From Planctomycetota bacterium (GTDB lineage Bacteria > Planctomycetota > Planctomycetia > Pirellulales > Pirellulaceae): a stretch of 64,000 nt of DNA. This document shows, in pieces, positions 6,113 through 59,888 of this stretch; positions within the stretch are counted from its first letter, which is position 1, and each line of letters starts with the position of its first letter. The notes below the pieces were generated by a model that worked only from the letters and a program-made list of their open reading frames with translations, had not been told where the DNA came from and ran no database searches. Made by a program: the position numbers and the translations under genes. The stretch is from the NCBI GenBank assembly GCA_026692865.1, contig JAPLNI010000055.1, positions 1-64,000 of the forward strand, read 5' to 3'.

Positions 6113-6386
6113 CTACTCCTTGTGAAAAGTTATCGACGACAAGATTGACACCGCTGCGTTTTGATTAGTCATCCATGCGATTTAACTATCTTTATAAGCG
6201 AGTAGACGCTGCTTGACTCGCCTTTCTTACCTAGAAAATCCATATTTTAACAAACAACCTTAAAGGCAAATCGGGTAACGCGGAGCTTGCATTATCGATT
6301 CGTTACCATTCATCCCATAGAATAGAATGTCGAGGCACACCCTCAGGTAGATTTTCTTGCTTATGCCCGCACTGTAAACAAAAAAC
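6113..6386. promoter_or_regulatory. Divergent promoter region of the redoxin and ogt genes
   Basis: The 274-base AT-rich gap separates two divergent starts, so it must hold both promoters. AAGGAG just upstream of 6112 (minus strand) is the ribosome-binding site of the redoxin gene. No defined operator could be recognised. Confidence 0.45.
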
Positions 6387-7013
6387 ATGACAAGCATTTA
6401 TTACAGCCAAGTCGAGAGCCCCCTTGGATCGCTTTTGGTTACTCTCCAACAGGATCAGCTCACAAATGTTTGTATGAACCAGCAAAAGCGAAAGGTCTCG
6501 ATCGAGCCCGAGTGGATCTACGATGACAAACCATTTTGCTCGCTGGTTCAGCAATTCCAAGAGTACTTTCAAGGGCAGCGACATCAGTTTGACATCCCTA
6601 TTCGGCTTGAAGGGACACGTTTTCAAGAGCTCGTCTGGAAAGAATTGCGTAACATTCCTTACGGGACGACCACGACGTACGGCGAGCTTGCCAAGCGAAT
6701 CGGCAACCCCAAAGCGGTCCGAGCTGTTGGGATGGCGAATGGTCAAAACCCGATTCCGATTATCGTCCCTTGCCACCGCGTGATCGGATCGAACGGAAAG
6801 CTCACCGGCTTTAGCGGCGGATTGCATAACAAAACGTTGCTCTTAAGTTTAGAGGAGCAAAGCATGCAAACAAGATACGTGAGAGAGTGTCAATCGATGT
6901 TGAACCCAAGGGAAGGAGTTTCTGCAGCGCAGTTTAACCAGTTGTTTCGATTGAGATTCAATTCGATTCTAGCACGAGTACCGCCTTCGGCTGAGTGCGA
7001 GTACGGGACGTAA
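6387..7013 (+). CDS. ogt: Methylated-DNA--protein-cysteine S-methyltransferase
   Basis: This suicide repair protein transfers the alkyl group from O6-alkylguanine (and O4-alkylthymine) in DNA to its own cysteine. The active-site motif PCHRV has the acceptor Cys at residue 129. PYGTTTTYGELA (91-102) and AVGMANGQNP (DNA-binding helix and Asn hinge) precede it, and GFSGG follows. The catalytic domain ends near residue 160, but the ORF continues for about 48 more residues (TRYVRECQSMLNPREG onward) with no recognised domain. The N-terminal half is the usual RNase H-like fold. The gene is alone on its strand. Confidence 0.93.
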   Translation: MTSIYYSQVESPLGSLLVTLQQDQLTNVCMNQQKRKVSIEPEWIYDDKPFCSLVQQFQEYFQGQRHQFDIPIRLEGTRFQELVWKELRNIPYGTTTTYGELAKRIGNPKAVRAVGMANGQNPIPIIVPCHRVIGSNGKLTGFSGGLHNKTLLLSLEEQSMQTRYVRECQSMLNPREGVSAAQFNQLFRLRFNSILARVPPSAECEYGT

Positions 7014-9783: not shown

Positions 9784-12700
9784 ATGACTCGTACTCTCTA
9801 TTTCCTATCGATTGCCATCGGATTGTCGATCTCAGCACAGGGATCAGATATTCTTGTTAGCAAATCCAAGACGACAGTTCAAAAGCTGCCCGATGTAGTT
9901 TCCTTCAACGCTCATATTCGACCAGTCATGTCAAACACATGTTTCGCATGTCATGGTCCCGACGAGGAGGATAACGAGAGCGGCTATCGAATTGATTCTT
10001 TTGATAATGCCACGAAGACTCTTCCTTCGGACAGTCAAATCGTTGGGATTAAACCGCACGCACCTGAAGCGTCCGAAGTTTATCTTCGAATCACAGGCAA
10101 GAGCGATGGCGAGCAGATGCCGCCTCGCGAATTTCGTCATCAGCTTTCGGACTACGATAAAGCGCTGTTCGAAAAATGGATCGCTCAAGGTGCAACCTAC
10201 GAACAGCATTGGTCTTATACACCGATCAAGCAGTCAACGGTTCCGGTTACCGAAAAGCACGCCGATAAAATCGACAATCCAATCGACTCTTTCGTGGTTG
10301 CTCGGCTAGAGGAAGAGGGTCTCTCGCCAAGCCCAACCGCTGACAAAGCAACACTGCTTCGAAGGCTTAGCCTGGACTTGATCGGACTGCCACCGACACC
10401 AGAAGAGTTGCAAAGATTTGTTGCTGATACATCAGAAGGCGCATACGAAGTCGAAGTCAATCGTTTGATCAGTTCGGAGCATTTTGGCGAGCGTATGGCA
10501 AGTTCGTGGCTCGATATGGTTCGTTTCGCCGACACAGTTGGATTTCACGGTGACCAAAATCAACGCATATTTCCGTACCGCGATTACGTGATCAATGCGT
10601 TCAACAAAAACATGCCCTTTGATCAATTCACACGTGAACAGATTGCCGGAGATTTGCTTCCCAGTCCGACTGAAGAGCAACTGATTGCTACGGGCTTTTT
10701 GCGTCTGAATATGATGACGCGCGAAGGGGGCGCTCAACCCAAAGAATACCTTGCCAAGTACCGCGCCGACCGAGTTCGCTCGATCGGAACAGCTTGGCTC
10801 GGTTCGACCCTCGGGTGCTGCGAATGTCATAACCACAAGTACGACCCGTTCACTGCGAAAGATTTTTATTCTTTAGGAGCCTTCTTCGATGATCTTCGAC
10901 AGTGGGGCGTCTACTCCGATTACCAGTACACACCCAATCCGGATCTGCGAGCTTTCACAAATGAGTACCCGTTCCCACCGGAGATTCGCATTGATAGCCC
11001 CGTTTTAAGAACAGAGTTGGATGGGTTGGCTCGTGAACGTGATGATCGACTGCTTTTACAGCTTGGCGATGGAGCATTCGAGTCGGATGATTTTGAGTCG
11101 TGGCTGGTGAGGACCGAGAGCTTCTCGCGAAGTCATCCAGACGGATGGATCGCGGCCACTATCGACTCTGCAAGTGCGTCTGGTCCAACGAAAGTTGAGT
11201 ACGCAGGCGACGGAACCTTGCTTTTCGAAGGTGAATCGCAGAAAGATGAACAGATCACGTTGAACGCATCAGTCATGGAACCGACTGCGGTGAACTCGAT
11301 TCGCGTTGAGGTTCTTCCGGACGAAATTCATAGCAATCTCGTGGGCCGTTCTCCAGAAGGCCGATTCTCTTTATCGCTCAAGGTTTCGATTGTTGATCCC
11401 GAAACGCCTGTCGTTGAATCAGCCAAAACGGATGACAAGGTCACAACCAATAAGCCAGTTACGATTGCTTGGGCTCAGGCAGACCGACAAGCTCCGAAAA
11501 AGTATGCCAACGGAGTCGAAGCGTTGTTCTTAGAGCAACCGTGGCTAGGAGGGTTGCCTAAGTTTCAAGTACCTGCCAACGAGACATCGAAGCCGCACAC
11601 TGCCGTCTTCCATTTCGATAAACCAATAGAGGTTCTGCCTAATCAGAAACTTAAGATCGTTCTTAACAGTGGCGACGTGGGGAAGATTCGTTTGTCGTTC
11701 ACACCGATCGGTCACGCTTTTGCTGGTATGCCTGCTCTGACGGATTCTTTACGTAGCGCCCTAAAGATAGCAACCGAATTTAATCAAGCTGCATGGGATC
11801 AGAGCATTCAAGCTACGCTCGTGAGCGCTTGGCATCGATCCACGATTCCAATCGCAAAGCAACATGAGCTTAGCCTTTACTATCGAGATGAAATGCTAAA
11901 GTGCCGATCGGGCACTACCATGTCGCTCATCGCCCAGTCCGTATCCGCAGACAAGATTCCGGTCAGCAAGGTTCTTCCGCGAGGAAACTGGCAAGACGAA
12001 AGCGGTGAGCTTGCACCTCCCGGAGTGCCTCACTTCTTGCCTCAGCCAAAATCCATTCATCAAGAAGGCGAACCGGCGAGGCGACTCACTCGACTTGATC
12101 TTGCTGACTGGATTACGTCGAAGGAAAACCCGCTTACACCGCGGCACTTCGTCAACCGTACGTGGAAGCATTTCTTCGGTATAGGGTTGTCGGCCAAACT
12201 TGACGATCTTGGAAGTCAAGGTGAATGGCCGAGCCATCCATTGCTGCTAGATTGGTTGGCTGCCGAGTTTGTGAACAGTGGCTGGGATATGCAGCATGTG
12301 ATCAAGCTGATCGTTACCAGTAGAGCCTACCGTCAGTCGGCCGCCATTCGAGTAGATCTTTCCGAAATCGACCCCTACAATCGGTTACTTTCGCAGCAGT
12401 CTCCGAGAAGATTGGAAGCGGAAGCGATTCGCGATAATGCTTTGGCAATTTCTGGGTTGCTTTCGAAAGATTACATCGGTGGTCCGAGCGTTTCTCCGTA
12501 TCAACCCGATGGATATTATTCGAACCTCCAGTTCCCTGGTCGGAAGTACATCCCAGACAAAGACTACCGGCAATACCGACGCGGTGTTTACATGCATTGG
12601 CAGCGTACTTTCTTGCATCCCATGCTGGTCAATTTCGATGCTCCCTCGCGTGATGAGTGCGCTGCGGATCGTCCGCTTTCAAATAGTCCTCAGCAAGCCT

Positions 12701-13487: not shown

Positions 13488-13502
13488 CGCGAAATAATAA
13501 CC

Positions 13503-13584
13503 GTAGCAAATTTCGTAAGGAACCTGAAGCCTGCAGCTTTACTGCTACCCCGAATGCGGTTTGAATTCTTACGAATTCAGCTAC
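13503..13584. repeat. REP-like paired-hairpin element, copy B
   Basis: An 82-base element between convergent genes. GTAG (13503-13506) is followed by a decayed first hairpin with loop GTAA at 13515-13518. The second hairpin is intact: TTGAATTC-TTAC-GAATTCAG with terminal CTAC (13561-13584). The spacing is identical to copy C. Confidence 0.85.
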
Positions 13585-13607
13585 CCAATTATCTGATATC
13601 TGATTTG

Positions 13608-22436: not shown

Positions 22437-22518
22437 GTAGCTGAATTCGTAAGAATTCAGAAGACAGTTTGCTCAACGGTAAAGCTGTATTTTTCAGATG
22501 TCTTACGACATCTGCTAC
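22437..22518. repeat. REP-like paired-hairpin element, copy C (best copy)
   Basis: An intact 82-base element. GTAG (22437-22440) precedes CTGAATTC-GTAA-GAATTCAG (22441-22460), a perfect 8-bp stem. After a 34-base spacer comes CAGATGTC-TTAC-GACATCTG (22495-22514) and terminal CTAC (22515-22518). Read on the other strand the second half is again GTAG, stem, GTAA, stem, so the two units face each other. It starts 4 bases after the upstream stop and touches the glnS stop. Confidence 0.92.
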
Positions 22519-24236
22519 GTTGAACCGGCAATCTTTGCCCATGTGTCACGCAATGTTACGATTCGATTGAACACGGGGGCTCCTGGAGCGGAGTCTTTCG
22601 TATCCGAGCAGAAGTAACCATTGCGTTCGAATTGGACGCGAGTTCCCGGTGCGGCAGCAGCGACCGATGGTTCGACTTTCGCGGTGACAGTTTTCACGCT
22701 GTCAGGATTGAGGTTGTCGAGAAAGGTTTTTCCTGCGGGTACATCTTCCGGGTCCTGGCCTAGGAAGAGCCGATCGTAAAGTCGAACTTGAACATCGGAG
22801 GCTGTTTTTGCGGAGACCCAATGAATGGTTCCCTTTACTTTTTTCGTGCTTGCCGATTCGCTGCCCGAACGCGTGTCAGGATCGTAGGAGCAGTTGAGCT
22901 GAACGATGTTGCCTTGAGCGTCCTTGATGACTTCGTCGCAACGAATGATGTATGCATAACGTAGACGCACTTCTCCGCCGGGCTTCAATCGGAAGTACTT
23001 CGACGGAGGTGTCTCCATGAAGTCTTCGCGTTCGATGTAGAGTTCGTTTGAAAATGGAAGCTCTCGAGTGCCATCTTCCGGTCGCTCTGGATTGTTAACC
23101 GCTGTCATCGTCTCGGTGTTGTCGGCGGGATAGTTCGTTAAGACAACTTTAATTGGATCAAGAACCGCCATCACTCGAGGAGCTACAGCGTTCAAGTGAT
23201 CGCGGATCGCATTCTCCAAGATGACCACATCGATGGTACTGTTGAATCGTGCGACACCGATGTTGTCGCAGAACATATGGAGACTCTCCGGTGTGTAGCC
23301 GCGTCGACGTAGTCCGCTGATAGTCGGCATTCGTGGATCATCCCATCCACTGACAAGCTTTTCTTCGACAAGCTGCAAGAGCTTTCGTTTGCTCATTACC
23401 GTGTAGGTAAGATTCATACGAGCGAACTCCATCTGCCGAGGATGAAAAATATTCAATTCTTGACAGTACCAATCGTAGAGCGGTCGATGGTTCTCGAACT
23501 CCAGCGTACAAATGGAATGCGTGATGCCTTCGATCGAGTCGCTTTGACCGTGAGCCCAATCGTACATCGGGTAGATGCACCACTGGTCGCCAGTCCGATG
23601 ATGGTGAGCGTGCATGATTCGATACATGACTGGATCGCGCAGGTTTAGGTTTGCGGAGGCCATGTCGATTTTCGCTCGAAGTGTATGCGTCCCTTCGAGG
23701 AACTCGCCCTTCTTCATTCGTTCAAACAGATCGAGATTTTCAGCGACAGTGCGATCGCGGAAAGGGCTGTTCTTCCCAGGCAATGTGAGTGTGCCGCGAT
23801 ACTCTCGCATCTGGTCTGCGTTTAAATCGCAAACGTAAGCACGACCCGCTTTGATTAATTGGACTGCCCACTGATACAGTTGCGGAAAATAGTCTGACGC
23901 GTAGTGCAGGTTGCTCCACTGGAACCCTAGCCATTTTACATCCGCCATAATCGACTGGACATATTCATCGCTTTCCTTGGTTGGATTCGTATCGTCGAAA
24001 CGCAGATTGCATGTCCCGCGATACTTCTTTGCGAGCCCAAAATTCAAGCAGATGCTTTTTGCATGTCCTATATGCAGATATCCGTTTGGTTCCGGTGGGA
24101 ACCGTGTCGCGACGGATTTGCCGGCAAGCTTAGGTTTATGAAAGTCCTTTTCAATCTCCTGTTCGATAAAGTTTGCAGGGCGTTCCGGCGAGCTCTCGTC
24201 GGGAGTCATGTCGATATTCCAGTTGTCGTTGTTCAT
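22515..24236 (-). CDS. glnS: Glutaminyl-tRNA synthetase
   Basis: A class I aminoacyl-tRNA synthetase charging tRNA-Gln. The 573-residue protein contains [16 protein letters not shown] (HIGH motif), RFDDTNP, and the KMSKS-type VMSKRKLLQ, followed by GlnS C-terminal anticodon-binding beta-barrels ([33 protein letters not shown]). I prefer ATG 24236, which has AAGGA six bases upstream, over an in-frame GTG at 24254. Direct glutaminylation by GlnS, rather than the amidotransferase route, is thus likely in this organism. Confidence 0.97.
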
Positions 24237-26707: not shown

Positions 26708-26791
26708 GTAAGCTGAATTCGTAAGAATTCATAGGTCAATGAAAACAATGGCGGAAGCTGATGTTTTCAGATGTCTTACGATATCTGCTTC
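26708..26791. repeat. REP-like paired-hairpin element, copy D
   Basis: CTGAATTC-GTAA-GAATTCAT (26713-26732), preceded by GTA with one extra A, and the inverted partner CAGATGTC-TTAC-GATATCTG (26768-26787) ending in CTTC. It lies between ftsH and the next plus-strand gene. Confidence 0.85.
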
Positions 26792-32753: not shown

Positions 32754-33394
32754 ATGAGCGCAGCAAAACAGTTACAACAAATCGCAATCAACGACTATCT
32801 GCGTGGTGAGGTTGGGGCAAAGCAAAAGCACGAATACATAGACGGTTCCGTGTATGCGATGGTTGATGCTTCCAACAATCACAACCTCATTGCGACCAAC
32901 GCGACCGTCACACTCGGCGGACAACTTCGTGGCAAGCCTTGCAGGGTTTTTAATTCCGACGCAAAGATTCGCGTCCACAATTCAAGAGGTCTTCGTTTTA
33001 TCATCCGGACCTCTCGGTTGTTTGCGAGCCGAATCCCGAAAATGATTCATTTCATGACTTGCCTGTTGTTGTCGTTGAGGTGATCTCGGCCTCTACCTGG
33101 CGAACGGACGAGTACGAGAAACGAGAGTCCTATCAGATGATCGAATCTTTGAGTGTCTACATCCTTGTCGAGCAAAAAGCACCTGCGGTTTTGGTCTATC
33201 GACGATGCGAAAACGGTTTTGTTGCCGAATCATATCTCGGACTTGATTCAGTTATACCGCTACTAGAAATCGATTGTAATTTGGCACTCGGTGACGTTTA
33301 TGCAAACGCGGTATTCCCTTCAGCGGAGCAAGTTCGCGAACAGCAAGAGCACTTCGAACTGACTGGTGAACTGCCTGTCGAGTTTGTGTTTTAA
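32754..33394 (+). pseudogene. Uma2-family (DUF820) endonuclease-like gene, frameshifted
   Basis: The first frame (from ATG 32754) encodes the Uma2 N-terminus: DYLRGEVGAKQKHEYIDGSV, NHNLIATNATVTLGGQLRG, CRVFNSDAKIRV. At CGTTTTATC (32994-33002) the frame is lost. With one added T it continues as FYHPDLSVVCEPNPENDSF, DLPVVVVEVISASTWRTDEY, EKRESYQMIESLSVYILVEQ, which carries the Asp, E-V-S and Q/K core of the PD-(D/E)XK-like Uma2 fold, and ends at 33394 in normal length. Uma2 proteins are abundant putative nucleases without a proven role. It sits 39 bases after the tRNA. A sequencing indel is a real alternative. Confidence 0.85.
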
Positions 33395-35610: not shown

Positions 35611-35963
35611 TCGCGACATCATCATTCCAGCTATGATACTCGGGTTGGCTTATGGACGAATGACCAAGTCGCAGGGCATAATCACGATTGCTTTGTCCAG
35701 ATTAAACACTTGGGTCAGCAACCGAAGCAGATGTCGTAAGACATCTGAAGACCTTATCTTTTGCTTTTATTTCAAACTACGTCTGAATTCTTACGAACTC
35801 AGCCACCCAGAAATCGAAGCTAGGCAAGGGATTTAGCCCTTATGTAAGGACCTGTCTTTGGCTAGAGAATTATAATAGTACAGCAAGTTAGAAACATTAG
35901 TTTCGGTGCAGTGGAGTCGATGTGTTGGTGCCGATGCAATGTTACACCTTTTAGAAAGCACCT
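35611..35963. other. Intergenic region between the glycosyltransferase and hemL
   Basis: It contains REP-like copy F (35724-35806). The remaining sequence should carry the hemL promoter. No gene was recognised. Confidence 0.5.
35724..35806. repeat. REP-like paired-hairpin element, copy F
   Basis: In this copy the two hairpin types are in reverse order: GAAG then CAGATGTC-GTAA-GACATCTG (35728-35747), and after a spacer CTGAATTC-TTAC-GAACTCAG (35783-35802) with CCAC (35803-35806). Total 83 bases. Confidence 0.88.
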
Positions 35964-49048: not shown

Positions 49049-50755
49049 ATGAGGCATGCAATAATGCGAAGAGACTCAATTAGTTTGGCGTGGCTGAAGC
49101 GTTCGATTTTGGCAGGGTTGATTATCTTCATTCACTCCACAGGAAAAGCCGCCAGTGGACATGGCGATGCGGACGACGCCGCAAGCTGCAAATCATCCAT
49201 GCAAAGCCGCTTCGATGCGATTCTAAGTGATGAAGCATCAGAGGGCACTTTCGATATCAAAAAATTTGGTACGCTTGCAACCGTTGCTTTATATGAGTCC
49301 GTTCGATTGATGGATTGCAACCTGTTCGACAGCGATACTATTGCGATTATTAATCAAGATTTCGAAATGCGGTTGTGCGAACGGCGAGCTCTCGACTCGG
49401 GCAGCGATACTCCGACGAACACGAATGAGAGCCAAGTTTTTGTTGCTCATACCGCGATACCAGTTTTACCACCCGCAGATCAAGATGTTGAAGAGTTTGC
49501 TGAAAGCACCAATGAGCTTGCAAGTGAGCTGATGAAACCTTTGCCGATGGCGTTTGCCACCGGTTTCGACGTCGCCACAATTTGCCGGACAGCACTCGAG
49601 GCTAGCACCTACGGTTCGGGAAAAATGCCCTTTTCATCACCCCAGCCTGCAACTGAGCTTCCCGACATGAACTCAGGCACTGAAGAACAATTACCAGCAA
49701 AAGCATCCTTCGCCGTCGAAATCTCCGCGATCGAATCTGCAATCCAAGTGCGACCTTGGGGGTACCGATTTACTCGCGATAACTTACTTAGCTCGTACCA
49801 CTTCTCAGGCGAGTTGCAAATCACAAAGTTATACGACGAGGAGTACCGCCCCTACGATTTCTTCGAAGTACCGCAAGCGCGCAACACATCGGAAATCAGC
49901 GAAGTTCAAGTAGCGGCTGAAGTGAGTAGCATTGCCGAGATGCAAAGCGTGCCTGAAGTGCCGAGCGTGCCCGAAGCGTATGTTGACTCGGAGTCAATTG
50001 TGACATCGCCGGCTCCGGACAAAGAGCTTTCCATTTCCAGCATCGTTCCGATGAGCTCGATTACAGATTCGATAGCCTGCGCCCGATCCGCAGTATCCGC
50101 AACTTGTATCAGCGCATTTGATCAAGCCAAAATGTTTATTGATTCCTATGAATTCGATATTCAAAACTTGCTGTTCGAACGCGTTCAGCAATCAACCCCA
50201 TTTATGAATCAAATGGCGATGACCGCGACCGGATACGGCGAAGTACTTGCTCGTCAGCATTGGTTGATGAACGGCATCAAGTTGGCGATTAGCTGGAACT
50301 CTTTCGCTACGGGACGTGAGAAGGCAAGTGACGAGACCTCTGAGTCATTAGATCCATCGGTTGTTCGCCATGATTTGCGACAGGTCTTTGGGGCTAGCGT
50401 CCTCACAGACCCATTCGCAGCAGATTGTTCCCTCGTTATCAAGCGTCCGCCCACGCTCGCTTCACCAAAAATGGTTGAAATGGCAACTGAAGCTGGCGAA
50501 TCAGGGGTAAAGGTTGCTTATGACGAGTCGGCAAACGCGACGCTGGGCGACGCCGACGTCCAAGACTCGACCGCTTATGAACTGCTAGTTCTGCTTCAAG
50601 ATGCGTCTTGGATGGCTCATTCGATTGACTCGAATTTTTCAGAGGGCTCAGACGTGGTAGAAATCGGGCTTAGCAAAATTGAAGAAGCCTCGACGGAACC
50701 AAAATCCGCTTCGTTGACGCCAGAAAACGCCGGAATCGGGGTTTCTCAGCGGTAA
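49049..50755 (+). CDS. Secreted protein of unknown function
   Basis: The 568-residue protein has a signal segment (SILAGLIIFIHSTGKAASG) after a basic N-terminus; ATG 49049 and ATG 49064 are both possible, with AGAGG upstream of the first. The mature part is acidic, Ser/Glu/Ala-rich. It has a short degenerate repeat (SEVQVAAEVSSIAEM, then QSVPEVPSVPEAYV, about 289-311), and a more structured region near 365-415 (FDQAKMFIDSYEFDIQNLLF). No family was recognised. It could be a surface or stalk-type protein. The next gene is a response regulator 159 bases away. Confidence 0.65.
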   Translation: MRHAIMRRDSISLAWLKRSILAGLIIFIHSTGKAASGHGDADDAASCKSSMQSRFDAILSDEASEGTFDIKKFGTLATVALYESVRLMDCNLFDSDTIAIINQDFEMRLCERRALDSGSDTPTNTNESQVFVAHTAIPVLPPADQDVEEFAESTNELASELMKPLPMAFATGFDVATICRTALEASTYGSGKMPFSSPQPATELPDMNSGTEEQLPAKASFAVEISAIESAIQVRPWGYRFTRDNLLSSYHFSGELQITKLYDEEYRPYDFFEVPQARNTSEISEVQVAAEVSSIAEMQSVPEVPSVPEAYVDSESIVTSPAPDKELSISSIVPMSSITDSIACARSAVSATCISAFDQAKMFIDSYEFDIQNLLFERVQQSTPFMNQMAMTATGYGEVLARQHWLMNGIKLAISWNSFATGREKASDETSESLDPSVVRHDLRQVFGASVLTDPFAADCSLVIKRPPTLASPKMVEMATEAGESGVKVAYDESANATLGDADVQDSTAYELLVLLQDASWMAHSIDSNFSEGSDVVEIGLSKIEEASTEPKSASLTPENAGIGVSQR

Positions 50756-53135: not shown

Positions 53136-53156
53136 CGCTTTATCCAGAATCATCTG

Positions 53157-53233
53157 GTAGCTGAATTCGTAGGAATTCAGACCTCGGTGGAAACATAGAC
53201 TGAAGTCTTCAAATGTCTTACGATATGTGCCAC
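53157..53233. repeat. REP-like paired-hairpin element, copy G
   Basis: GTAG (53157-53160) then CTGAATTC-GTAG-GAATTCAG (53161-53180; loop GTAG instead of GTAA). The inverted partner is CAAATGTC-TTAC-GATATGTG (53210-53229) with CCAC (53230-53233). It is 77 bases long, between convergent genes. Confidence 0.88.
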
Positions 53234-54686: not shown

Positions 54687-54941
54687 GATGTACCAAACGG
54701 AGGAAGGGAGCCGACCAAACCGAAATGTTTTTGGTAAGATCGGTCTACGCCGAAATGTCCACTAGAGTTCACCTGCTTATGCTATGCAAAACGGCAGCCA
54801 ATAAAACCTCAGGCCGAAAAGCAGGGGCTGCGTCGTAGCGGCTGTCGTAAGACATCTGAAGACTGACGCGTTTTCTCTGAATGCTACCGACGGCTGAATT
54901 CTTACGAATTCAGCTAAACCGAATCCAATCTGGACAAAACC
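54687..54941. other. Intergenic region carrying REP-like copy H
   Basis: The stretch between the ABC ATPase stop and the His/Cys-rich start holds REP-like copy H (54835-54917) and no recognisable gene. Confidence 0.5.
54835..54917. repeat. REP-like paired-hairpin element, copy H
   Basis: GTAG (54835-54838) then CGGCTGTC-GTAA-GACATCTG (54839-54858). The inverted partner is CTGAATTC-TTAC-GAATTCAG (54894-54913) and CTAA (54914-54917). Total 83 bases. Confidence 0.88.
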
Positions 54942-55824: not shown

Positions 55825-57018
55825 CTACTTCCAATCGCGGCGTTGACGAGATGATGGAATGTTCATCTTCTTGCGATACTTGGTAATAGTTCGACGCGCA
55901 ACAGTGAGCCCGTGCATTTTAAGCGAGTCTACTAGCGCGTCATCGCTCAACGGGTCCTGCTTATCTTCCTTGTCAATAATTTCTTGCAGCTTGATTCGAA
56001 TCGAATCCCAAGCAACATCTTCGCCGTCTTCGCTGCGCGTTCCACCGACAAAGAATCTTCGAAGCGGAAGAATTCCACGCGGCGTTTGCAACCACTTGTC
56101 ATCGACTGCGCGACTAACCGTTGTAACGTGAACACCAACTTGATCGGCGATTTGCTGCATCTTGAGCGGTTCGATTGCTTCAGGGCCTTCGTCCAAGAAT
56201 CGCTTCTGGTAGTCCACGATGTGCTGAGTGACTTTCAAGAGCGTGCTTCGACGTTGCTGAATCGCATCGATCAACCACTGCGCACCATTAATTTTCTTGC
56301 GGATAAAATCCTTCTCCTCAGCCGAGGCGGAAGCGTCTCCCAAGCGACGTCTGTAGTACTCGCTAATTCGCAACGGCGGTAACGAATCATCTTCCAGCCG
56401 AACTATGTATCGACCGTTCTCATCGGGTTCGACATAAACGTCTGGTCGTACCGATGGAACAAAGACTTCCATAAATGCAGCGCCCGGCTTGGGATTGAGA
56501 TGGTGCATCTCTTCGCGTACATCGCGGATCAATTCGAGCGAGTAACCTGTCTTCTTTTGAATGACAGGGAGTCGGTTCTCAGCCAAGTCATCAAGGTGAT
56601 GCGTGATGATCGTTCGCATCTCTTCTTCGTAAGGTGTTTCCGGCTTGATCTGAATCAACAAGCACTCACGAAGATTCCGAGCCGCAATTCCCGTCGGCTC
56701 GAAGTTCTGGACGATACGCAAAGCTTCTTCCGCCTTGACCAAGTCAGAAGCCGTGTGGTCAGGCGGAAGAATGTCCGCCAAAGGTGTTGTAAAATAACCG
56801 CCGTTGCGAGCATCCAGGCACGAGATGATCCGCTCGGCAATCTGTTCAACATCGGTGTCGATATCTTGCTCGGCTAGCTGATGGAGCAAAAAATCGTTGA
56901 GTGACTCGGGGCGTTCTGCGGCATTGGCCATCATGTCAGCGTGCCGATCCATGTCATCCGAGATGCGTCCTGAGGACGGACGGAAATCGTCGAACGAGTC
57001 AGGCATATCGGTGGTCAT
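55825..57018 (-). CDS. rpoN: RNA polymerase sigma-54 factor, main part (C-terminal fragment of split rpoN)
   Basis: This 397-residue frame holds all of sigma-54 except region I: the core-binding region (SLNDFLLHQLAEQDIDTDVE, GYFTTPLADI, VQNFEPTGIAARNLRECLLI), the helix-turn-helix (MQQIADQVGVHVTTVSRAVD, KWLQTPRGILPLRRFF) and the C-terminal RpoN box ARRTITKYRKKM, which reads the -24 promoter element. Region I is in a separate upstream frame (57015-57299) whose TGA overlaps this ATG as ATGA. Restoring one A in the GGAAAACATG run at the junction would give a single protein of about 490 residues. Either it is split, or the sequence has an indel. Confidence 0.85.
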   Translation of the reverse strand: MTTDMPDSFDDFRPSSGRISDDMDRHADMMANAAERPESLNDFLLHQLAEQDIDTDVEQIAERIISCLDARNGGYFTTPLADILPPDHTASDLVKAEEALRIVQNFEPTGIAARNLRECLLIQIKPETPYEEEMRTIITHHLDDLAENRLPVIQKKTGYSLELIRDVREEMHHLNPKPGAAFMEVFVPSVRPDVYVEPDENGRYIVRLEDDSLPPLRISEYYRRRLGDASASAEEKDFIRKKINGAQWLIDAIQQRRSTLLKVTQHIVDYQKRFLDEGPEAIEPLKMQQIADQVGVHVTTVSRAVDDKWLQTPRGILPLRRFFVGGTRSEDGEDVAWDSIRIKLQEIIDKEDKQDPLSDDALVDSLKMHGLTVARRTITKYRKKMNIPSSRQRRDWK

Positions 57019-57299
57019 GTTTTCCAGCCCTCAGCGTTGGACGAATCATCTTTGACGACCAGTTCGCGTTCGTCCTCGGTTTTCGAGGACTGCTTCTCTG
57101 CGACCTCTAGTTCACCGTTTGCGTCGACCGGCGGCTCTGGCTCTTCGAGTTCGAGCATCGGGTTTTCGCTCATTTCCTGGTCGATCCGCTCCTGAAGCGC
57201 CATGATTGGCAACTGCAAGATCTCCATCGACTGGATCATTTTTGGAGCCAGCTTTTGGGTCTGTAATTGTCGGGCTTCCAACCCAAACGACATTCGCAT
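57015..57299 (-). CDS. rpoN: RNA polymerase sigma-54 factor, region I (N-terminal fragment of split rpoN)
   Basis: This frame encodes the activator-interacting region I of sigma-54: MSFGLEARQLQTQKLAPKMI followed by QSMEILQLPIMALQERIDQE, then an acidic region II-like tail, ending WKT-stop at 57015. ATG 57299 is preferred, with AGGA nine bases upstream; ATG 57305 is also possible. Length from 57299 is 94 residues. Without the remaining domains it cannot bind core polymerase or DNA on its own. It is translationally placed right before the main rpoN frame. Confidence 0.85.
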   Translation of the reverse strand: MRMSFGLEARQLQTQKLAPKMIQSMEILQLPIMALQERIDQEMSENPMLELEEPEPPVDANGELEVAEKQSSKTEDERELVVKDDSSNAEGWKT

Positions 57300-57329: not shown

Positions 57330-57697
57330 GCATCGAACTTCACACGCGCCGGATAAACTCTTACTCCAAACTGTATCACCCCGGAGCTAGAAAGTGCAAG
57401 ACGTTTCGCTATTTTTCGTAAAAACGGAACGAAAATTGCAATCCCGGGCCGTTTTGTACGAATCGGTTTAGTGCCGATCAACGGCCGCCTTATAGACGCA
57501 GCCATTTTTTGGTCGTTCGCGAGAGAAGAAACTCGCTCTGGCTATAGTGAAATTCGCAGTAGCTGGATTCGCAAGAATTCAGCTTTATGACGACATCTGC
57601 TTCGAGGAAACTTCCTGTTTTTAACCTGGACGAAGATAAAAACCAAATAGCAGAAGTCTTACGACTTCTGCTACGTGAGTAGGTTCCGACTGGCAAC
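57330..57697. other. Intergenic region between rpoN and dnaK
   Basis: The 368 bases hold REP-like copy I (57559-57674) and presumably the rpoN promoter. No gene was recognised. Confidence 0.5.
57559..57674. repeat. REP-like hairpin element, copy I (extended)
   Basis: GTAG (57559-57562), CTGGATTC-GCAA-GAATTCAG (57563-57582), a partial hairpin ending GACATCTG with CTTC (57592-57603), and a third full hairpin CAGAAGTC-TTAC-GACTTCTG with CTAC (57651-57674). The third stem is the AAGTC version also seen in copy A. Confidence 0.88.
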
Positions 57698-59617
57698 TTA
57701 CTTGTCCTTGACTTCGAACTCGGCATCGATCGCATCGTCTTCGCCTGACTTGGCTGCTTCTCCGCTAGCTCCACCGGCGGACTCGGCGCCCGCTTTCTCG
57801 TAAAGGGTCTTCGTGAACGCAGTCGAGGCTTGCTCAAGGTCGTTGGTCGCGGACTTGATGGCTTCAGTATCTCCGGAAGCAATCGCATCGCGAACCTTCT
57901 TGATAGCTGACTCCATCGGTGCTTTATCGTTATCGGAAAGCTTCTCGCCTTGATCCTTGATTGTCTTCTCAAGCTGGTAAACAAGGTTTTCACCCTTGTT
58001 CTTCGCTTCAGCCAATTCGAATGCCTTTCGGTCATCGTCTGCGTGCTCTTCGGCATCGCGACGCATCTTTTCGATTTCGTCTTTGCTGAGACCACTGGAC
58101 TGTTCGATCTTCACGCTAGCTTGCTTACCGGTTCCGATATCGCGAGCAGACACATTCAAGATACCGTTTTGGTCGATATCGAATTTGACTTCGATTTGAG
58201 GTGTTCCTCGAGGTGCTGGCGGAATGCCTTCCAAGTTGAATTGGCCAAGCACTCGGTTCTGCTGAGCCATCTTGCGTTCACCTTGGAAAACGCTAACCGT
58301 TACGGCAGTTTGCCCATCGGCAGCCGTTGAGAAGGTGTTCTTCTTTTCGACAGGGATGGTCGTGTTTCGTTCGATGAGAGCCGTCATGATTCCACCTTCG
58401 GTCTCGATGCCTAACGTCAACGGTGTGACGTCCAAGAGGAGCACGTCACGACGATCACCGGCAAGAACTGCACCTTGAATAGCTGCTCCAACAGCAACAA
58501 CTTCGTCCGGATTCACTCCTTGGTGAGGCTCCTTGCCGAAGATTTCCTTGACGATCTGACGAACCTTAGGCACACGAGTCGAACCTCCAACGAGCACGAC
58601 TTCATCGATATCTGAAGGCTTCAGCTTCGCATCAGCGAGAGCTTGCATCACTGGCTTTCGGCATCGTTCCATGAGTTCGTCGGCAAGCTCTTCAAACTTC
58701 GAACGAGTAACTGTCATTTGAAGATGCTTCGGACCGGTTGCATCGGCAGTAATAAACGGGAGGTTCAAATCAGTCTGAGGGACGCTGCTAAGCTCCTTCT
58801 TCGCTTTTTCGCAAGCTTCTTGAAGCCGTTGAAGCGACATCGGTTCTTTGCGTAGATCTATCCCGTTGTCTTTTTGGAACTGTGCTGCAACGTAGTTGAC
58901 AAGCGACTGGTCAAAGTCGTCACCGCCCAAGTGAGTATCACCGCTGGTGCTGATGACTTCGAATACCTTGCTGCTGGTATCGTCACCGCTTAAAGCGACT
59001 TCCATGACTGATACGTCGAACGTGCCGCCGCCCAAGTCAAATACGACAATCTTGTGGTCTTTGTTCTTGTCGAGCCCGTAAGCCAAGGCGGCTGCGGTTG
59101 GCTCGTTGATGATCCGTGCGACTTCAAGACCTGCGATCTGGCCAGCGTCTTTGGTTGCTTGTCGTTGAGCATCGTTGAAGTATGCAGGGACAGTGATAAC
59201 CGCCTTGCTTACACGGTGACCTAGGTACGACTCGGCTGCTTCCTTAAGCTTTCGGAGAACCTTGGCGGAAATTTCTTGTGGGGTGTATTGCTGGTCGCCA
59301 ATGCCTACTTTGACATACTCGTTTTTGCCGCCGACAATTTTGTACGGGACGATCTTCTCTTCCGATTCGACTTCTTCGTGACGGCGACCCATGAATCGTT
59401 TCACCGAGGATACGGTTCGTTGTGGGTTGGTCACCGCTTGTCGGCGTGCTGGCTCGCCAACAATCGTCTCGTTCTTGTCGTTGAATGCGACAACACTAGG
59501 GGTCAGGCGGCTTCCTTCAGCGTTGGGAATGACCTTCACTTCATTCCCTTCCATCACCGCGACGACGGAGTTTGTTGTTCCTAAGTCAATTCCAATAATC
59601 TTTTCGCCCGAAGCCAT
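57698..59617 (-). CDS. dnaK: Chaperone protein DnaK (Hsp70)
   Basis: The 639-residue Hsp70 starts with [19 protein letters not shown] and contains [66 protein letters not shown] and the substrate-binding-domain [17 protein letters not shown]. The C-terminus ([16 protein letters not shown]) is acidic like the EEVD-type tail of other bacterial DnaK. It is monocistronic in this window; dnaJ and grpE are not visible. No CIRCE operator was seen upstream. Confidence 0.98.
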
Positions 59618-59888
59618 AATCTCTAACCCTTTAAGTCTAAGTCGACAGAAAAAACGTTACGATGCTTTTAGAAAGCAACCAGCGTGCCAAACTTCCTACG
59701 ACTATTGTCGAGGCCCATCGCTCAGGCTGGCGAGTCGAGCTAAACTGGTTTTTCCGTTAAAGACGCGCCAAAGAGGTCCTGTTTCGCCCTGAACCGCTAG
59801 ATAGTGTCGTTTTTTGTAATCGCTCGAACTTCCCAAGTCTCAACAGCCGCCATTCTGGGGGTTGCCAATTTGACAGTGTTGCCCATCG

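Follow-up and report, generated by a model that had tools for sequence, protein, structure and literature searches.

The sigma-54 gene rpoN in the window, i.e., the 64,000 nucleotides of contig JAPLNI010000055.1 (positions 1 to 64,000; Planctomycetota bacterium, assembly GCA_026692865.1) analyzed here, is divided into two reading frames that overlap as ATGA. Our favored explanation, with a probability of about 0.43, is a very young 10-base deletion in an ordinary single-copy rpoN. It is preferred because the rpoN of a relative from the same genus is intact, no split was found in other relatives, the gap comprises ten bases, and the dN/dS of the two pieces is low. We counted against it that rpoN is otherwise retained in the phylum and in the relatives, and that a frame break in a Uma2-family gene, also in the window, makes assembly errors conceivable. 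Either a young deletion or an artefact of assembly accounts for everything seen.

Two rpoN frames and a ten-base gap

A sequence-only reading of this DNA had described sigma-54 as split into two ATGA-overlapping frames, and the frames and Pfam domains on the minus strand bear this out. The first piece (57015..57299, minus strand) starts with an ATG at 57299, comprises 94 codons plus a TGA at 57017-57015, and encodes region I (Sigma54_AID, PF00309, E = 4.5e-15) together with the beginning of region II. The second piece (55825..57018, minus strand) starts with an ATG at 57018, comprises 397 codons plus a stop ending at 55825, and encodes the remaining region II, Sigma54_CBD (PF04963, E = 3.4e-48), and Sigma54_DBD (PF04552, E = 6.4e-61). 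The TGA of the first piece and the ATG of the second have four bases in common (57015..57018, minus strand). Taken together, both pieces harbor all three sigma-54 domains (AID, CBD, and DBD) above the Pfam cut-off, distributed over two frames and not joined in the single polypeptide that defines RpoN. In the genome (72 contigs, 99.42% complete), the DBD and the AID were each matched once, in both cases at this locus; no second sigma-54 copy and no free region I was found elsewhere in the 72 contigs.

The next gene upstream (57698..59617, minus strand) was named dnaK on account of its sequence and because it is conserved in 34 of 36 genomes. Between dnaK and rpoN lies a terminator-like stem-loop (57647-57674, minus strand; chance expectation, 0.5), which suggests that rpoN may be transcribed separately from dnaK. 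The best sigma-54-type site 5' of rpoN itself scored an unremarkable 8 of 11.

For comparison, one other genome of the same genus was used, in which rpoN is located on JAIYDQ010000147.1 (H1_MAG_00040). Its rpoN is uninterrupted (494 codons) and has dnaK and an ABC-transporter ATPase gene as neighbors in common with the window. The DNA of the rpoN region is 86% identical between the two genomes, and the protein encoded by the second piece is 98.5% identical to the corresponding rpoN product. Relative to this gene, ten bases are absent from the window about 10 nt upstream of the ATGA overlap (57027..57030 in the alignment, minus strand, with edges uncertain by 1 to 2 bases). The absent bases correspond to most codons of a DFER motif in the linker of regions I and II, and the protein at the junction accordingly reads ...SNAEGWKT-stop in the window versus ...SNAEDFERLENM in the relative. 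The motif [E/D]DFERL is in frame in all 17 nearest named relatives and also in frame in a wider alignment of 121 distinct loci, being varied or gapped in the more distant ones. The locus thus shows an out-of-frame indel opposite an intact orthologue in a close relative, as is typical of a frameshift pseudogene.

The ATGA overlap had previously been taken as a sign of translational coupling. This interpretation falls with the same-genus rpoN, which also has ATGA at the overlap position, where its ATG is an in-frame Met codon of an intact frame; the overlap in the window therefore arose by chance of position. The case may serve as a warning that an ATGA overlap older than the break should not be taken for evolved coupling.

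Relatives, selection, and the presumed cost of losing sigma-54

The relatives likewise speak against an evolved split, for which they had been proposed as a test: the rpoN of the nearest one is uninterrupted between the same flanking genes, so that the split is not shared by the sole comparison genome of the genus. Among 60 relatives, 57 had a DBD match, in each case within a frame of at least 491 amino acids, and one of the 57 showed an additional weak, broken DBD match (E = 8.8e-4). All 52 relatives that are at least 90% complete possess the DBD. Of 131 rpoN loci, 123 have the whole gene in one frame, three have a single long frame whose N terminus is diverged, four are truncated at contig ends, and one is the window. 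In a sample of the phylum, the AID was matched in 141 of 149 genomes and was present in every one of the 88 that are at least 90% complete. Among the matches listed for these 60 relatives, 131 loci, and 149 phylum genomes, no split was found in a relative whose gene is complete. Six other short AID frames (74 to 353 amino acids) were considered as natural splits and rejected, since all six, among the matches listed, reach contig ends. The rpoN junction gave no match in viral_contigs, a collection ill-suited to a chromosomal gene, and a search of mostly non-subscription literature returned no title on a split or frameshifted sigma-54.

Between the window and the same-genus relative, the rpoN pieces differ by 160 synonymous and 7 nonsynonymous changes (dS = 0.81, dN = 0.006, dN/dS = 0.0077). 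Both pieces have been under strong purifying selection in the past. When the nonsynonymous changes were assigned to branches with the help of 12 outgroups, two of the seven fell more likely in the relative, while the others were ambiguous or possibly belong to the window, which puts at most about 5 on its branch and reveals no surplus of amino acid changes there. Without constraint, about 458 nonsynonymous changes would be expected on this branch (half of dS times 1137 nonsynonymous sites). From this comparison of at most 5 changes with about 458, a null state can have lasted for no more than about the last 1 to 2% of the branch. The break is hence young, or tolerated (i.e., non-null), or an artefact. 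The low dN/dS is inherited from an intact ancestor and would look the same whether the split works or the break is very recent.

The genetic setting of rpoN bears on how costly its loss would be. Twelve strong activator AAA+ domains (E below 1e-60) were found in the genome, of which seven carry GAFTGA, three carry GSFTGA, and two have TDA endings; four weaker AAA+ matches are doubtful, and the activator family also matches in all 14 control genomes. Furthermore, an exact match to the -24/-12 sigma-54 consensus is located 5' of dnaK (59674..59689, minus strand) and is identical in the same-genus relative. We examined 30 dnaK loci including that of the window, and in 24 of them (23 of 29 without the window) a site matching the consensus at 10 or more of its 11 positions lies no farther than 200 nt from the gene. 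The reversed pattern was found at 1 of the 30 loci, and neither the antisense strand nor the complement pattern gave any (0/30 each). A CIRCE element was not seen upstream of dnaK at any of the 30 loci. Judged from these sequences, dnaK seems to depend on a putative sigma-54 promoter across the order. The site accords with a published prediction for Planctomycetia, in which the sigma-54-linked genes include those for DnaK, GroEL, and GrpE (PMC12316311).

Genome-wide, exact -24/-12 sites are not enriched over the reversed pattern (4 versus 4), and the corresponding counts are 3 versus 4 in the same-genus relative and 11 versus 4 and 12 versus 9 in two other genomes. The genome-wide count is therefore no evidence of a sigma-54 regulon, which is indicated by the dnaK site only. 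Given the 12 activator domains and the sigma-54-type promoter of dnaK, a true loss of sigma-54 should be very costly.

Explanations of the break

If the gap is a young deletion, it would have struck the linker that joins region I to the core-binding domain, and the shifted frame would run into a TGA that by chance overlaps a pre-existing Met codon. The cell would then produce region I as a fragment of 94 residues, and ribosomes re-initiating at the overlapping ATG may add some sigma-54 that lacks it. The truncated protein would probably retain its binding to core polymerase and to -24/-12 promoters, but its response to AAA+ activators would be poor or absent, with activator-dependent transcription presumably abolished or much lowered in the sequenced cells. 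An Escherichia coli sigma-54 without region I resembles the second piece alone in having the core-binding and DNA-binding domains; it is a laboratory construct, whereas here region I is still encoded in a separate frame. In vivo, this form showed no activity at pspA, and across the genome it caused no major bypass transcription, yet at 42°C it reached about half the wild-type level at glnAp2 (PMC4551910). In view of the activity at glnAp2, the loss of function need not be total. Natural or spontaneous damage to rpoN is likewise described in evolved Campylobacter jejuni, where all five populations contained cells with partial rpoN loss (PMC7677240), and in the form of truncated RpoN in some Neisseria (PMC12316311). 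There, rpoN has lost domains or large portions, whereas here all domains are kept in two frames. As a disrupted rpoN, the present case is ordinary.

It is possible, though in our estimate short of even odds, that the gap is absent from the living cells and that the rpoN of the organism is intact. The gap would then have arisen as a fault of assembly or consensus, or the consensus would have picked up a minority variant. Selection on both pieces appears undisturbed, sigma-54 appears important in the group, and the relatives are all intact, all of which would fit such an artefact. On the other hand, sequencing errors seldom take the form of a clean 10-base gap, and the flanks of this one share 1 to 2 bases only, which offers little for a misjoin.

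The quality of the window was further assessed by comparing 43 main frames (42 genes, with rpoN counted as two frames) beyond its first 3.5 kb with the same-genus genome. Main frames and their gaps were used for this purpose; six-frame split detection gave many false hits from antisense frames. A net out-of-frame gap was present in 8 of the 43 frames, and in 5 of these 8 it lies 5' of the first Met codon or at the extreme end of the gene. Breaks within genes were found in two cases, namely, rpoN and a Uma2-family gene (32754-33391, plus strand), whose halves are in two frames and which lacks one base compared with the intact copy in the same-genus genome. A one-base break in the same window is a point in favor of an artefact, and finding this second broken gene slightly raises the odds of one; in our judgment, however, Uma2-family genes may also decay naturally, and the 40 of 42 genes without such a break indicate that the consensus is good overall. 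The frame breaks in the window neither prove nor exclude an assembly error. The remaining one of the eight gaps alters only the C-terminal tail of a methylguanine methyltransferase gene (6378-7010, plus strand), whose frame differs from that of the same-genus copy past the end of the domain.

A third explanation, which we regard as unlikely, is that the split works: both pieces would be made, the second by termination-reinitiation at the ATGA, and region I would dock noncovalently on the long helix of the second piece to give an activator-responsive two-piece sigma-54. Both sets of domains are complete by Pfam, both pieces are still constrained, and a null state should be costly. Furthermore, the interruption is located in region II, a variable part of sigma-54 that Rhodobacter capsulatus lacks (PMC4005640), and region I directly contacts region III in structures (PMC7057263). 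A cut in region II would thus be placed where it does least harm, and a two-piece protein is conceivable. A GAGG lies 10 nt 5' of the second ATG with a duplex energy of -5.8, a value that 5.9% of the 903 ATGs on the minus strand equal or surpass. In the intact relative, however, the corresponding ATG scores even better for its Shine-Dalgarno-like context (-6.4). The ATGA is older than the break, so nothing appears adapted for coupling, the constraint is inherited from an intact ancestor, and the arrangement is seen in no relative and hence gives no sign of persistence. A working split accords with the data, but none of the results argues for it positively.

In its boldest form, to which we assign a slightly lower likelihood, the locus would be a natural two-piece sigma-54 at its birth: a deletion in a dispensable region II would have cut the gene, an overlapping frame would now provide region I in trans, and the cell would live on the result; as sigma-54 appears to drive dnaK, the break would hardly be tolerable otherwise. 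If the pieces do work, they would amount to an experiment of nature on whether the activator-sensing part of sigma-54 has to be covalently joined to the remainder, a question that is sharpened by the apparent sigma-54 dependence of the neighboring dnaK across the order. In Bacillus subtilis, SigO-RsoA is a two-protein sigma factor of the sigma-70 family encoded by two separate partner genes. We liken it to the rpoN pieces by description alone, both being two-part sigma factors, although SigO-RsoA belongs to the sigma-70 family.

Recoding, by which a frameshift programmed at the junction or slippage of the transcript there would produce one full-length sigma-54, is very improbable. An AAAA run is indeed located just 5' of the junction, which reads TGG AAA ACA TGA in frame, but shifted tRNAs would pair poorly at these codons, four A residues are short for slippage, and no relative has a junction of such a kind.

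The same run was central to the indel error considered by the sequence-only reading as the alternative to a true split. An indel was the right kind of event; the proposed detail, a single A lost from the run, is not supported, as the missing sequence comprises ten bases upstream of it. Although one added base would restore the frame arithmetically, a dropped A has a negligible probability, since the relative reads GGAGAAC where the window reads GGAAAAC, without a longer run, and has its ten further bases upstream, which makes a homopolymer error hard to invoke.

Dispersed repeats in the window

Besides its genes, the window contains a dispersed repeat of about 80 bases that occurs on both strands and has many copies in the same-genus genome. 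Copies are located at about 10578-10662, 13502-13586, 22437-22519, 26711-26789, 35723-35808, 53156-53233, and 54833-54916, and from its sequence the element looks like a REP-type palindrome. Furthermore, a stretch of about 115 bases (49528-49644) matches the same-genus genome at about a dozen places.
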